From: Candidatus Zixiibacteriota bacterium
GTDB taxonomy: Bacteria; Zixibacteria; MSB-5A5; GN15; PGXB01
Assembly (NCBI GenBank): GCA_016933955.1
Contig: JAFGTT010000009.1
Span: 62,001-126,000, forward strand
Direction of reading: 5' to 3'
Length of the DNA: 64,000 nt
In this document: positions 46,102 through 51,277 of the stretch, piece after piece
Numbering within the stretch: position 1 is the first letter of the stretch
Layout: the number at the start of each line of letters is the position of its first letter
The notes under the pieces: model-generated
The model's database searches: none
Seen by the model: the letters and a program-made list of their open reading frames with translations, nothing else
What the model was told of the DNA's origin: nothing
Program-made: the position numbers and the translations under genes

Positions 46102-46758
46102 ATGACATCATATGTAAATTCCAGAAATTTATCTTCCCGAGCTAAAATCTGGCTCAAACAGGTCAAACCATATAACCGGGATAATCTGAAACCGAACCGA
46201 TCCAGGGCTGTCCTGATAGTAATCGATATGCAGAAATTTTTCCTAGACCCGACTTCATCATCGTTCACCTGCGGCGGCTTGCCGATTATTCCCAATGTTC
46301 AAAGACTTATAACGCTTTTCCGCCAAATCCGGCGGCCAATTATTTATACCCGCCATGTGCACGATGCCAAGGGAATCGATGCCGGTATCATGAAATGGTG
46401 GTGGGATGATATGTGTATTGCGGGAACGCCGGAAAGCGAAATCCATGATGACCTGGCTCCCTGCCCGGGAGAGAGAGTAATTATCAAACACCGTTACGAC
46501 GCCTTTTACAACACCGGCCTGGAAACCGTTTTACGCGGTCTGAAAATAAAGGATATTATCATTACCGGAATAATGACCAATATGTGTTGCGAATCCACCG
46601 CCCGCGGGGCCTATTACCGGGACTACCGGGTCTTTTTCCCGGTCGATGCAACCGGGACTGTCACCGAGGAGATGCATACGGCCAGCCTGCTTAACCTGGC
46701 ATTCGGTTTCGCCGTTATTACAAACACGCCCAATCTGGTTCGGCAGATCGGGCGGTGA
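46102..46758 (+). CDS. Isochorismatase-like cysteine hydrolase
   Basis: The 218-residue protein has the triad of the family: Asp in LIVIDMQKFF, Lys in VIIKHRYDAF, and Cys in GIMTNMCCESTARGA, with the cis-peptide motif before it. It has an unusual 30-residue basic lead. Members hydrolyse isochorismate, nicotinamide, N-carbamoyl compounds or oxamate. The IMTNMCCEST type is common in siderophore-like isochorismatases, but no siderophore gene is near. The substrate stays open. Confidence 0.85.
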   Translation: MTSYVNSRNLSSRAKIWLKQVKPYNRDNLKPNRSRAVLIVIDMQKFFLDPTSSSFTCGGLPIIPNVQRLITLFRQIRRPIIYTRHVHDAKGIDAGIMKWWWDDMCIAGTPESEIHDDLAPCPGERVIIKHRYDAFYNTGLETVLRGLKIKDIIITGIMTNMCCESTARGAYYRDYRVFFPVDATGTVTEEMHTASLLNLAFGFAVITNTPNLVRQIGR

Positions 46759-46936
46759 TGGATGATGGCAATGAGATTATGCCGGGAAACAATAATTTTT
46801 TTAGAAAGACAATTACCTGTCAAATTTCCGGCTGACAGATTCTTTCGCTGTTTTTAACTTGTCGCGTGAATGATTATAATAAACCGGTTGGGCATTCCTT
46901 TCGTATAGGTCGGCCCGACTCATGAGGAAAAGCGAC

Positions 46937-48010
46937 ATGAACCAAACCCTGCCTGACAATAAGGTTCTTTACAAAGCTCTGGTGGAGAAAGACAGCACCT
47001 ATGACGGTATTTTTGTGGTCGGAGTTAAATCGACCGGAATATTCTGCCGTCCGACCTGCAATGCCCGGAAACCGAAAATTGAAAATGTCGAATTTTTCCG
47101 AACCCCGAAAGAAGCACTTCAGCGTGGTTACCGGCCCTGCAAATTGTGTCATCCGCTGGGATATAAAGACCGAATCCCCGACTGGCTGGTCCCATTATTG
47201 AAAGAAATCGACAGCGATCCCTCGATCAGACTTAAAGATTCGGATCTTATCGGGCGCGGTCTGGAACCGAACCGGGTTCGGCGTTGGTTTAAGAAACATC
47301 ATGATATGACCTTCCAGGCCTATCTTAGAAGTCTTCGCATCGGGTTGGCTTTGGGCCGTATCAAACAGGGCGATAAGGTAATTGAGGCGGCTTTTAATTC
47401 CGGTTATGAATCGTTGAGCGGTTTCACCAATTATTTCAAAAAGACTTTCGGTCGCTCTCCGGCCAACAGCAAGAATAAACAGATCATCTCCGTAACCCGG
47501 ATCCTGACTCCGCTGGGACCGATGATTGCCGGGGTGGTTGATAAGGGGATCTGCCTGCTGGAATTTGCCGATCGGCGGATGATCGAAACCCAGTTTAAAC
47601 GACTGCGCAGGGCTCTTGATGCTGAAATTATCCCCGGGCCATCGCCCCTTTTTGATAAACTGGATTTGCAATTGAAGGAATATTTCGAAGGCCGACGAAG
47701 GAATTTCGAGATACCCCTGGTGATTCCCGGAACCGAATTCCAAAGAAAAGTGTGGGAGGTTTTGCAAACGATTCCCTACGGGACAACCCGATCTTATCGG
47801 GAGCAGGCCGGGCTTCTCGGCCGTCCTGAGGCGATCCGGGCGGTCGCCCGGACCAACGGTGATAACCGGATCGCGATATTAATTCCCTGCCACCGCGTTA
47901 TCGGAAGCGACGGGCAATTGACCGGCTATGGAGGCGGGTTATGGCGGAAGAGATATCTGCTTGATCTGGAAAAGGCGGCTTTGAAACAGCAAGAAAACCA
48001 TAATATCTGA
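46937..48010 (+). CDS. ada: Ada-type methylated-DNA repair protein and regulator
   Basis: The protein has about 357 residues and the full E. coli Ada layout. The N-terminal Zn domain with four cysteines (FCRPTCNARKP...YRPCKLCHP) takes methyl from phosphotriesters, an AraC-type helix-turn-helix follows (about 95-175), and the O6-methylguanine methyltransferase domain is last, with IPCHRVIGSDG carrying the acceptor cysteine and GTTRSYREQA the DNA-binding helix. ATG 46937 is preferred because GAGG lies eight bases before it, though 46922 is possible. An AlkD-like glycosylase gene at 53821 repairs related damage. Confidence 0.93.
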   Translation: MNQTLPDNKVLYKALVEKDSTYDGIFVVGVKSTGIFCRPTCNARKPKIENVEFFRTPKEALQRGYRPCKLCHPLGYKDRIPDWLVPLLKEIDSDPSIRLKDSDLIGRGLEPNRVRRWFKKHHDMTFQAYLRSLRIGLALGRIKQGDKVIEAAFNSGYESLSGFTNYFKKTFGRSPANSKNKQIISVTRILTPLGPMIAGVVDKGICLLEFADRRMIETQFKRLRRALDAEIIPGPSPLFDKLDLQLKEYFEGRRRNFEIPLVIPGTEFQRKVWEVLQTIPYGTTRSYREQAGLLGRPEAIRAVARTNGDNRIAILIPCHRVIGSDGQLTGYGGGLWRKRYLLDLEKAALKQQENHNI

Positions 48011-48731: not shown

Positions 48732-48833
48732 CCTCGTCCAACCCGATCCTGCTTGCGATCCAGAGCCGGGAACCTTATAATTCAACGTTCGTTTTATTAA
48801 CCAGTAGTGTATTATAAAACACGGGAGAATATC

Positions 48834-49373
48834 ATGCTCAAAGCCGACAAAGCGGTCCTGGTGGTGGTCGATATTCAGGGGAAACTGGCAACCCTGATGC
48901 ACAACAGGGAAGTTTTCTATCAAAATGTAATCAGGATGATTAATGGCGCCAGAGCGCTGGAGATTCCGATCCTCTGGAATGAACAACTTCCCGACAAGCT
49001 GGGTGAGACTATCCCGGAAATCAAAGAAGTCCTGAGAGATAAGAAACCGCTGATAAAAAAATCTTTCAGTTGCTGTGGCAATCCGGATTTTGTCGATCAG
49101 TTAAAACAACTCAAATGCAAACAGGTCCTTCTGGTCGGCATGGAAACCCATATCTGCATCTACCGCACGGCTCTTGATCTCCTGCATGATGGTTACAAAG
49201 TCTATCTGGTCACCGATGCCGTCGCTTCAAGGGTTCCTGAAAACAAGCAGTTGGGAATCGAAGTCATCAAAGAGCGCGGCGGCCTTATGACCAGTGTCGA
49301 AATGGCCCTGTTTGAGATATTCGACACGGCCGAGGGGGATAAATTCAAGCAGATGGTGCAAATCGTTAAATAA
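48834..49373 (+). CDS. Isochorismatase-family hydrolase (YcaC-like)
   Basis: The protein has about 179 residues with catalytic Asp in VVVDIQGKLATLM, Lys in PLIKKSFSCCG, and Cys in LVGMETHICIYRTALDL, fitting the YcaC/nicotinamidase superfamily. The METHICIYRTA type and the C-terminal GGLMTSVEMALFEIF are those of YcaC-like hydrolases with unknown natural substrate. The ATG at 48834 follows GGGAG. It is the second isochorismatase-like gene within 3 kb, but the two are only distantly alike. Confidence 0.87.
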   Translation: MLKADKAVLVVVDIQGKLATLMHNREVFYQNVIRMINGARALEIPILWNEQLPDKLGETIPEIKEVLRDKKPLIKKSFSCCGNPDFVDQLKQLKCKQVLLVGMETHICIYRTALDLLHDGYKVYLVTDAVASRVPENKQLGIEVIKERGGLMTSVEMALFEIFDTAEGDKFKQMVQIVK

Positions 49374-49383
49374 AATAACGACA

Positions 49384-49800
49384 ATGCATAATATTAGATA
49401 TACAGACAATCCAGAAAATATTGAACCGGAAATGCTTCAAGGTTTTTTTGTCGGATGGCCCAAACCGCCCACCCCGGAGAAACATCTCGAAATACTGAAA
49501 AACAGCTATGCGGTGGTACTGGCTGTCGATGAAAACACCGAGCAGGTGGTCGGATTTATCAACGCTGTTGGCGATGGAATCTTGTGCGCCTATCTACCGC
49601 TTCTGGAGGTCCTGCCGGAATACCAGAAATGCGGGATAGGGGGCGAATTGGTCCAGCGGATGGTGGAGAAACTGAACCGGTTATATATGATTGATCTGGT
49701 TTGCGATGAGTCGCTAGTGGATTTTTACCGGAAACACGGGCTAAAACCGCACCGGGCCATGATGATTCGCAATTTCGACCGGCAATCGGGTGAAGCCTGA
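49384..49800 (+). CDS. GNAT-family N-acetyltransferase
   Basis: The 138-residue protein shows the acetyl-CoA loop LPEYQKCGIGGELVQRMV (Q-x-x-G-x-G type) at about 80-97, followed by the last strand YRKHGLKPHRAMMIRN. It starts ten bases after the isochorismatase stop and should be co-transcribed. The acceptor is unknown. It resembles small single-domain GNAT proteins such as those acting on amines. Confidence 0.83.
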   Translation: MHNIRYTDNPENIEPEMLQGFFVGWPKPPTPEKHLEILKNSYAVVLAVDENTEQVVGFINAVGDGILCAYLPLLEVLPEYQKCGIGGELVQRMVEKLNRLYMIDLVCDESLVDFYRKHGLKPHRAMMIRNFDRQSGEA

Positions 49801-49883
49801 TATTGGCCTATATGGGTCCGGTGAATCGGTACGAAAACAGCCGCAGTGGCTTGTTGGGGGCGGTTCTACAGGTAATTTTTTTC

Positions 49884-49914
49884 TTGCATAAAATTAAAAA
49901 TCGGACGTTATTAT
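49884..49914 (+). promoter_or_regulatory. Candidate promoter of the small RNA unit
   Basis: TTGCAT (49884-49889) and TATTAT (49909-49914) have a 19-base spacer, slightly long. Transcription from this promoter would begin near 49921, only about four bases before the extended ribosome-binding sequence. A T-run precedes the -35 box. Confidence 0.45.
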
Positions 49915-49941
49915 ATGTACACAGGAAAGGAGGTGGTCTAT

Positions 49942-49977
49942 TTGAAGTCAGACAAATGTGAGGTGGCTGCTACTTAG
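49942..49977 (+). CDS. 11-residue micro-ORF inside the structured RNA
   Basis: TTG at 49942 lies eight bases after the core GGAGG. The frame encodes MKSDKCEVAAT and stops at TAG (49975-49977). The near-perfect anti-Shine-Dalgarno complement in front argues that ribosomes load here. The stop sits inside a sequence able to form a pseudoknot with 50006-50014, so translation and folding would compete. Whether the peptide or the act of translation matters is unknown. Confidence 0.45.
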   Translation: MKSDKCEVAAT

Positions 49978-50035
49978 CCGCTTACTCGACCATATAGTTG
50001 GGTTTGCGCTAAGTAAATCCCAACAGTTTTACCGG

Positions 50036-50070
50036 CCTGATGGCGTTTGTGTATGCCATCAGGTTTTTTT
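50036..50070 (+). terminator. Rho-independent terminator of the small RNA
   Basis: CCTGATGGC (50036-50044) and GCCATCAGG (50055-50063) form a perfect nine-base stem with a ten-base loop, followed by seven Ts. Its T-run touches the end of the convergent lipoprotein gene. Confidence 0.92.
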
Positions 50071-51277
50071 ATTGATTTCCAATCAGTCCCTGTTCATCGG
50101 TTTTGATAAGGAAAACATCGCCGGGGCCGTTGCTGAACGAAGTGGTCCGACCGACAATAAAATGGCCGCCATCACGAGTTGGAATAATGTCCCAACCGGT
50201 ATCCTCGCCGACTCCACCATAGGAACGCCCCCAGATAGAGACTCCCCCGGAACCGACATTGATCAGAGGAATTTCCCCCCGGGCTTTTTTGGAATTATAC
50301 CAGCCGGTCAAAATACAACTGCTGTCGCTGGACCTGATCACGGCATTGCCGCCGCCATCGCCAAGATCATCATAGGTTTTATTCCAGAGAACATTCCCCA
50401 GCGAATCAATATTATACAGGCTGATAACCTGGGCCTCGGTTTTCTCCGAGGTGGTTCGACCGGTAAAGACGCAACCGTTGCCGTGGGTAGTTGTCAGACT
50501 CATGGCATAGTCAATCCCCGGGCCACCGAATGTTTTTTGCCATACCAGACTGCCGGAATGGTTGACCCTGGCCAGATAGAAATCCTCGCGCTGGTTTCCG
50601 AACGATTTTGACCAGCCCAGAATCAGAAAATCGCCGCCGGGAATGAGGGTCAGAGCTGAACCATGGTCAAGGTCCGCTCCTCCGAAGGTTTTCTCCCAGA
50701 GAATTTCGCCATCCTTATTCAAACGGGCCAGATAAATATCGGTATTTCCGGCGCCATATGATCTGGTCGTGCCAATTACCGCCAGGCCGCCATCGGGTAA
50801 TTCGATAACATCGCTGCCGTCCTCGTAATCATGGCCGCCCAGCATCCGGTCCCAGATCAATTCCCCCTCCCGATTGACTTTAAACAGGTAAATATCACTC
50901 TGGCCATCGGGAGTCGAGGAACTGGAGCCGACTACCACCAGATTATGGTCGCGGCTGATGATTATTTTGGCGGCATCATCGGATCCGCCCCCGCCATAAT
51001 TTCTTTGCCAGATAAGTTCCCCGGCCGGGTCGACTCCAAGGAGATAGATATCGTTGTCAACGGCTTTGAAAGAGCGTGTCACCCCGGCAATAACATAGCT
51101 TCCATCGGAAAGCTGAACCGCCGATTTGCCGGCATCCTCATCGGCGCCGCCGAAATGGCGTTCCCATGTGAACCACCGGTCATCCCGCCGGATTGATTTT
51201 ATAGAGGCACATGAGTTCAAGAATAAAATCGAGATGATTATAATAATAAAGGCTGACAGGTATTTCCATTTATTCAT
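50069..51277 (-). CDS. Lipoprotein with repeated beta-propeller-like blades
   Basis: The protein has about 402 residues. The signal peptide ends in a lipobox ILFLNSC (Cys about 23), so it is lipid-anchored. Seven or eight repeats of about 50 residues follow the pattern W-x3-(F/Y)GG-x2-D-x-G...DGG(F/Y)xxxGxTxS-x-G-x-D-x-(Y/F)LxxxxxxG, as in ERHFGGADEDAG and EKTFGGADLDHG. They are typical of PQQ-like or DUF-type secreted propellers from Bacteroidetes-related bacteria. The ATG at 51277 follows GGAGGATAAT; a longer frame to 51376 lacks a leader. Function is unknown; the blades may bind other surface proteins. Confidence 0.85.
   Translation of the reverse strand: MNKWKYLSAFIIIIISILFLNSCASIKSIRRDDRWFTWERHFGGADEDAGKSAVQLSDGSYVIAGVTRSFKAVDNDIYLLGVDPAGELIWQRNYGGGGSDDAAKIIISRDHNLVVVGSSSSTPDGQSDIYLFKVNREGELIWDRMLGGHDYEDGSDVIELPDGGLAVIGTTRSYGAGNTDIYLARLNKDGEILWEKTFGGADLDHGSALTLIPGGDFLILGWSKSFGNQREDFYLARVNHSGSLVWQKTFGGPGIDYAMSLTTTHGNGCVFTGRTTSEKTEAQVISLYNIDSLGNVLWNKTYDDLGDGGGNAVIRSSDSSCILTGWYNSKKARGEIPLINVGSGGVSIWGRSYGGVGEDTGWDIIPTRDGGHFIVGRTTSFSNGPGDVFLIKTDEQGLIGNQ

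Follow-up and report, generated by a model that had tools for sequence, protein, structure and literature searches.

Within the window, the whole 64,000-nucleotide stretch of DNA analysed here, a small RNA gene lies on the + strand. Its neighbours are a + strand reading frame that ends at 49800 and, on the other side, a convergent 435-aa frame with its stop at the RNA's T-tract. Farther upstream, two frames that appear isochorismatase-type hydrolase-like by eye (46102-46758 and 48807-49373) flank an Ada-like fusion frame (46922-48010). The sequence features of the RNA listed in an earlier sequence-only reading were all recovered at their coordinates when the DNA was read directly. A start-like ACACA stands at 49919, directly after a conserved promoter. 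The promoter-like boxes of that reading hold in that a promoter is conserved before ACAC in 42 homologues, but the box returned by a simple promoter scan (49865-49894) is not the conserved one. The perfect nine-bp terminator is also present (stem 50036-50044/50055-50063, then T7 at 50064-50070), and ARAGORN finds no tRNA-like domain or tmRNA in the window. The features are given below, where R1 denotes a covariance model trained for this analysis on 60 sequences from three phyla.

49875-49918, + strand: conserved promoter region with a T-tract, TTG near -35 and TATTA near -10 (sequence; conservation by position in an ACAC-anchored alignment of 42 homologues)
49919-50072, + strand: whole RNA gene, member of RF02471 (Ms_IGR-5) (cmscan 56.8 bits; 98.1 bits with R1, whose training set includes this copy itself)
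49925-49938, + strand: extended Shine-Dalgarno sequence (SD) GAAAGGAGGTGGTC, 14 positions against the 16S 3' tail with one G-U (16S 3' ends of relatives; single genomic occurrence)
49942-49977, + strand: micro-ORF MKSDKCEVAAT*, TTG start, TAG stop (in-frame start in 42 of 42 homologues; stop kept as TAG, TAA or TGA)
49960-49965, + strand: SD-like GAGGTG inside the ORF, exactly three codons upstream of the stop (42 of 42 phylum homologues and 33 of 33 other loci, an apparent invariance that is inflated because the pattern scan and R1 both reward the GAGGTG-stop region)
49962-49969, + strand: 5' strand of helix P1, GGUGRCUG (covariation with 50024-50033)
49972-49981, + strand: 5' strand of helix P2, holding the stop codon (ACTTAGCCGC) (A-U/G-C, C-G/G-C/U-A and U-A/C-G exchanges)
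49984-49990, + strand: 5' strand of the P2 extension, ACUCGAC, pairing with 49997-50003 (long-range fold of the window's RNA)
49997-50003, + strand: GUUGGGU, either 3' strand of the P2 extension or 5' strand of the pseudoknot helix P3 (P3 nearly invariant)
50006-50014, + strand: 3' strand of P2, GCGCUAAGU (GCGCTAAGT) (covariation)
50015-50021, + strand: AAAUCCC, a conserved segment that the long-range fold leaves unpaired (all three phyla keep AAUNCC)
50024-50033, + strand: 3' strand of P1, CAGUUUUACC, just before the terminator (covariation)
50036-50070, + strand: intrinsic terminator, nine-bp stem plus T7 (sequence; terminator scan)

Positions 49919-50072 match Rfam family RF02471, Ms_IGR-5 "Actinobacteria sRNA", over its full length (cmscan, model 1-184 of 184), with 56.8 bits against a gathering score of 45 bits. 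The sequence-only reading had recognised no matching family, which is incorrect, and had named a match to a known Rfam family as grounds for abandoning its proposal; RF02471 is such a family, and the match disproves the novelty of the RNA but not its design. RF02471 and the window's RNA share the 5' ACACA with SD, GUGAGGUGGCUGC, the stop-codon helix, AAUNCC, CAG..ACC and the terminator, whereas the window's host belongs to the Zixibacteria rather than the Actinobacteria, and its copy is AT-rich with a shorter apical loop. The window's RNA is a Zixibacteria member, and so a member in a new phylum, of the known Ms_IGR-5 family.

RF02471 is not confined to Actinobacteria, being found in close homologues from Candidatus Zixiibacteriota (L066, L077) and in a Blastocatellia genome (L123), and it is the "Actinobacteria" label that is too narrow, rather than the match that is false. 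Searches with R1, in which a dozen or two candidates were scored per genome and counts are lower bounds, place the RNA in at least 47 of 132 genomes of Zixibacteria (42 of 132 are positive with the Rfam model), at least 68 of 198 of Actinomycetota, the phylum of L058 (Catellatospora), and at least 34 of 297 of Acidobacteriota, the phylum of L123, always as one copy. The weakest acidobacterial matches have E values near 5e-4, and those read out keep the same ORF ending. With the Rfam model the family is absent from 14 control genomes. Within the window's own order the distribution is patchy, with near-complete genomes (e.g., G023, G032, G034) lacking a match. A mobile origin was considered and rejected, as viral contigs gave no exact pattern match to the element, a phage search gave no match, and the single match in a plasmid collection lies on a 2.66-Mb Nocardia replicon.

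The earlier description of a stand-alone transcript is upheld by the surroundings: the next downstream gene lies on the + strand in 21 and on the - strand in 19 phylum homologues, and no recurrent neighbour family is found across phyla. The RNA is thus a stand-alone gene and presumably trans-acting. A family member is transcribed in S. lividans (PMC8079986), another is a stand-alone sRNA unit in S. avermitilis (PMC8780764), and RNA-seq for a discrete small RNA comes from actinobacterial members only (PMC8079986, PMC8780764, PMC10454040).

To place the 5' element, the 16S tails of close relatives, ending in ...GGCTGGATCACCTCCTTTCT, were used, since the organism's own 16S rRNA 3' end was not found in its assembly, where the pattern matches the element alone. 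Against these tails 14 SD positions pair with one G-U, in agreement with the complementarity first claimed for the window, and in several relatives (L001, L005, L006) the match extends to 18 positions, again with one G-U. Allowing G or A at position 12, a search of the organism's whole genome finds this 14-mer once, and a reversed control gives zero. Three acidobacterial loci (L200, L207, L214) carry a one-base insertion in the extended SD (GGAGGNNGRTCC) that leaves two anti-SD-complementary parts. At L044, L046, L052, L054 and L057, the relatives' 16S near the 3' end reads GGGGCTAAGTCGTAACAAGG and shares GCTAAGT with the 3' strand of P2, probably by chance because actinobacterial members lack GCTAAGT in P2. 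Extended SD-anti-SD pairing, non-canonical start codons and small ORFs are shared with the extended-SD mRNAs of Staphylococcus aureus, although those cases are mRNA leaders or uORFs (PMC13009471), whereas here the RNA is stand-alone and has a second SD at the stop.

The micro-ORF reads TTG AAG TCA GAC AAA TGT GAG GTG GCT GCT ACT TAG. An in-frame start at SD distance is present in 42 of 42 phylum homologues when ATT is counted, while the two other frames yield 3 and 4; with ATG, GTG and TTG alone, 36 have one in frame versus 0 in either other frame, the start codon being ATT in six of the 42. Among further loci, 32 of 33 have an in-frame start at this distance. While the stretch between the SD and GAGGTG varies among homologues in length and content, and the stop varies among TAG, TAA and TGA, a stop is always found three codons past GAG GTG. 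The ORF spans 10 to 19 codons in the family, mostly with TTG as start, and acidobacterial ORFs reach 19 codons with the same ending. The start-frame control and the stop-codon exchanges argue for translation, as the sequence-only reading had proposed, and the micro-ORF looks translated. Consistent with this, published Ribo-seq from M. abscessus and M. smegmatis shows ribosome footprints on Ms_IGR-5, with the caution by the same authors that many ncRNAs carry footprints (PMC4974804).

In five Acidobacteriota loci (L195, L197-L199, L205) a 19-codon micro-ORF has an extra in-frame GAGGTG upstream, as if the SD-like unit had been duplicated. At L014, L033, L036, L039, L040, L042 and L182 the sole in-frame start at SD distance is ATT, a start codon type known from infC, and initiation from ATT with an extended SD might depend on IF3.

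The RNA strand folds far better than its dinucleotide shuffles (z -4.1, 0 of 200), with the terminator contributing. Two helices are supported by covariation. P2 (ACUUAGC/GCUAAGU) takes up the stop codon, and P1, in which GGUGRCUG pairs with CAGYYACC, encloses it. Across the 60 sequences of three phyla, P1 and P2 together have a covariation score of 0.385 versus 0.210 +- 0.013 when shuffled, with 85 versus 41 two-sided changes, and every slid control is far lower. In Zixibacteria, P2 is paired in 233 of 252 cells versus 222.3 +- 1.4 for shuffles and about half for slid controls, with A-U replaced by G-C, C-G by G-C and U-A, and U-A by C-G; one P2 pair is GC in 27 of the 60 sequences, CG in 25 and AU in 2, with others. 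The pairing of 49972-49981 with 50006-50014 put forward for the window shows compensatory changes while the SD and micro-ORF stay, the outcome that the sequence-only reading had named as support. For the ten pairs of P1 in Actinobacteria, 664 of 690 cells are paired versus 641.8 +- 3.9 shuffled, and the tenth pair shows C-G/G-C exchange. Its core is compensated from CUG/CAG to CCG/CGG in L183 and L184 and by a G-C to C-G swap in L188-L190, and reads GGUGGCG/CGCCACC in L206. In Zixibacteria, P1 carries a bulge of one or two bases and belongs to the best fold in only 18 of 41.

The structure given by Rfam for RF02471, labelled an sRNA, is different. Its stop-proximal helix is P2 and is supported by covariation across the 60 sequences, but its first helix pairs the SD GGUGGU with GCUGCC and leaves CAGYYACC unpaired, and its line contains no ORF, internal SD or helix P1. 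The 5' side of this first helix is invariant, and two of its pairs fail in the window (cmscan). The 3' side of this helix appears better explained by P1 plus P2. The stretch 50015-50026 (AAAUCCCAACAG) hardly varies within Zixibacteria, and its AAUNCC, though unpaired in the P1/P2 fold, persists in all three phyla; this conserved stretch is a possible binding or tertiary site. A start-codon hairpin, P0 (GUCC/GGAC), was rejected, its apparent compensations by eye being no better than shuffles (mean z +0.16, -0.23).

Of the pseudoknot said to overlap the stop codon, the stop-codon pairing (P2) covaries, whereas the pseudoknot as such is unsupported: P3 (GUUGGG/CCCAAC) shows almost no variation in Zixibacteria and is not preserved in the other phyla. 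P2 with P3 is one of several possible arrangements. Another is a local hairpin, GGUGRCU/AGYCGCC, between GGUGRCU and the bases just past the stop, which would exclude both P1 and P2. A statistical association links R5 to the nucleotide that follows the stop, in the combinations A-U and G-C (Fisher p 1.6e-6 and 5e-4). When relatedness is respected, covariation is not significant; in this underpowered test, which has 2-3 well-supported independent pairs, the few pairs with a differing partner nearly all go the expected way. With so few independent pairs of good support, competition of the local hairpin with P1 and P2 in the naked RNA is only suggested. In one-strand predictions, the window's two folds are equally stable (-25.8 versus -25.5 kcal/mol), and the median advantage of the long-range fold is 2.3 kcal/mol in Zixibacteria and 8.0 kcal/mol in Actinobacteria, so that bistability is weak in the latter.

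With somewhat less than even confidence, we favour an RNA that is translated, acts in trans, retains ribosomes at termination and refolds according to their occupancy. The anatomy is well supported, far more firmly than this reading as a whole, while the function in trans is one we infer and hold less firmly than the whole. The comparison shows an extended SD able to pair with the 16S tail, then a poor start codon and a short ORF; with GAGGUG near the stop, this suggests a ribosome-directed design, a part of the earlier interpretation that comparison bears out. As a single-copy, stand-alone transcript, the RNA would combine a miniature mRNA with a structural switch. Ribosomes would be caught and would translate the micro-ORF to its stop. 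As GAGGUG lies three codons before the stop, a stop codon in the A site puts GAGGUG six nt before the P-site codon, a gap close to the spacing of an initiation complex. The anti-SD opposite GAGGUG should thereby stabilise a terminating or post-termination complex, and the pairing would hold the ribosome during termination and recycling. An internal SD just upstream of a stop and acting on the ribosome is also found at the prfB (RF2) frameshift site, where it sits 3 nt upstream of the P-site codon and compels the ribosome to shift; here the spacing is 6 nt, and neither a slippery codon nor an onward frame is kept. P1, with the internal SD, and P2, with the stop codon, cover the site where the terminating ribosome would stand. 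A ribosome at the stop would block both helices, and its occupancy would set whether the 3' half, with CAGYYACC and AAUNCC, is folded or exposed. Since the ribosome would exclude P1 and P2, the RNA could trap ribosomes, sense them or do both, and would serve as a readout of, or a buffer for, ribosome availability or the intactness of the 16S 3' end.

A conventional base-pairing sRNA, in which the 3' strand (CAGYYACC, AAUNCC) is a seed that occludes the SDs of target mRNAs and the micro-ORF merely regulates seed availability or stability, is unlikely but worth keeping in view. The gene is stand-alone, single-copy and terminated, and both the unpaired AAUNCC and the SD-complementary UCACC are kept across phyla; however, CAGYYACC covaries with the RNA's own GGUGRCUG, so internal pairing accounts for its conservation. 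That the pairing instead reads anti-SD integrity, making the RNA a sensor or protector of the 16S 3' end, we consider quite unlikely, as this accounts for neither the internal SD spacing nor P2. It would fit the members with AGAAAGGAGG, in which complementarity stops exactly at ...CCUUUCU, the usual mature 16S 3' end. A mycobacterial MazF toxin that removes the anti-SD does exist (PMC12274833).

The remaining alternatives place the function in the ORF. We give little credence to a gene for a conserved functional micropeptide: the ORF is in frame with its start and stop and ends in EV-x-x-x-stop in all members, but EV is dictated by GAGGUG, the next residue (A/T/P/V) follows P1 pairing, and the N-terminal part varies freely in length and sequence, for which reasons the peptide is probably a by-product. 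In leader-peptide attenuators such as E. coli trp and tnaC, a ribosome on a short ORF selects between exclusive folds followed by a terminator, and the RNA has this anatomy of alternative folds, overlapping ORF and terminator. A cis-acting leader attenuated by micro-ORF translation is nevertheless hardly credible, and the proposal of a leader-peptide sensor for a downstream gene is not supported, because the downstream gene lies on either strand (21:19) with no conserved neighbour, the next gene in the window is convergent, and the codons before GAG GTG vary, with no conserved sensing codons or arrest residue. Amino-acid sensing by a leader peptide was likewise rejected, no codon besides GAG GTG being conserved.

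The open-licence papers searched give no function for RF02471. The wider distribution, the micro-ORF logic, the fixed-distance internal SD and helix P1 are absent from them and to our knowledge new, though a prior description is possible. If RNAs of this design form a functional class of their own in at least three phyla, trans-acting with the terminating ribosome as the "ligand" and occupancy switching two folds, which we regard as doubtful but a real prospect, they would constitute a riboswitch-like sensor of ribosome supply, of termination and recycling, or of anti-SD integrity. RF02471 is catalogued as an actinobacterial sRNA; its presence in three phyla, together with the translation signals, the internal SD and the covarying helices at the stop codon, makes it a testable hypothesis of an RNA that reads the ribosome itself, and its members in Streptomyces and M. 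smegmatis, laboratory organisms that are easy to handle, make the idea directly testable.
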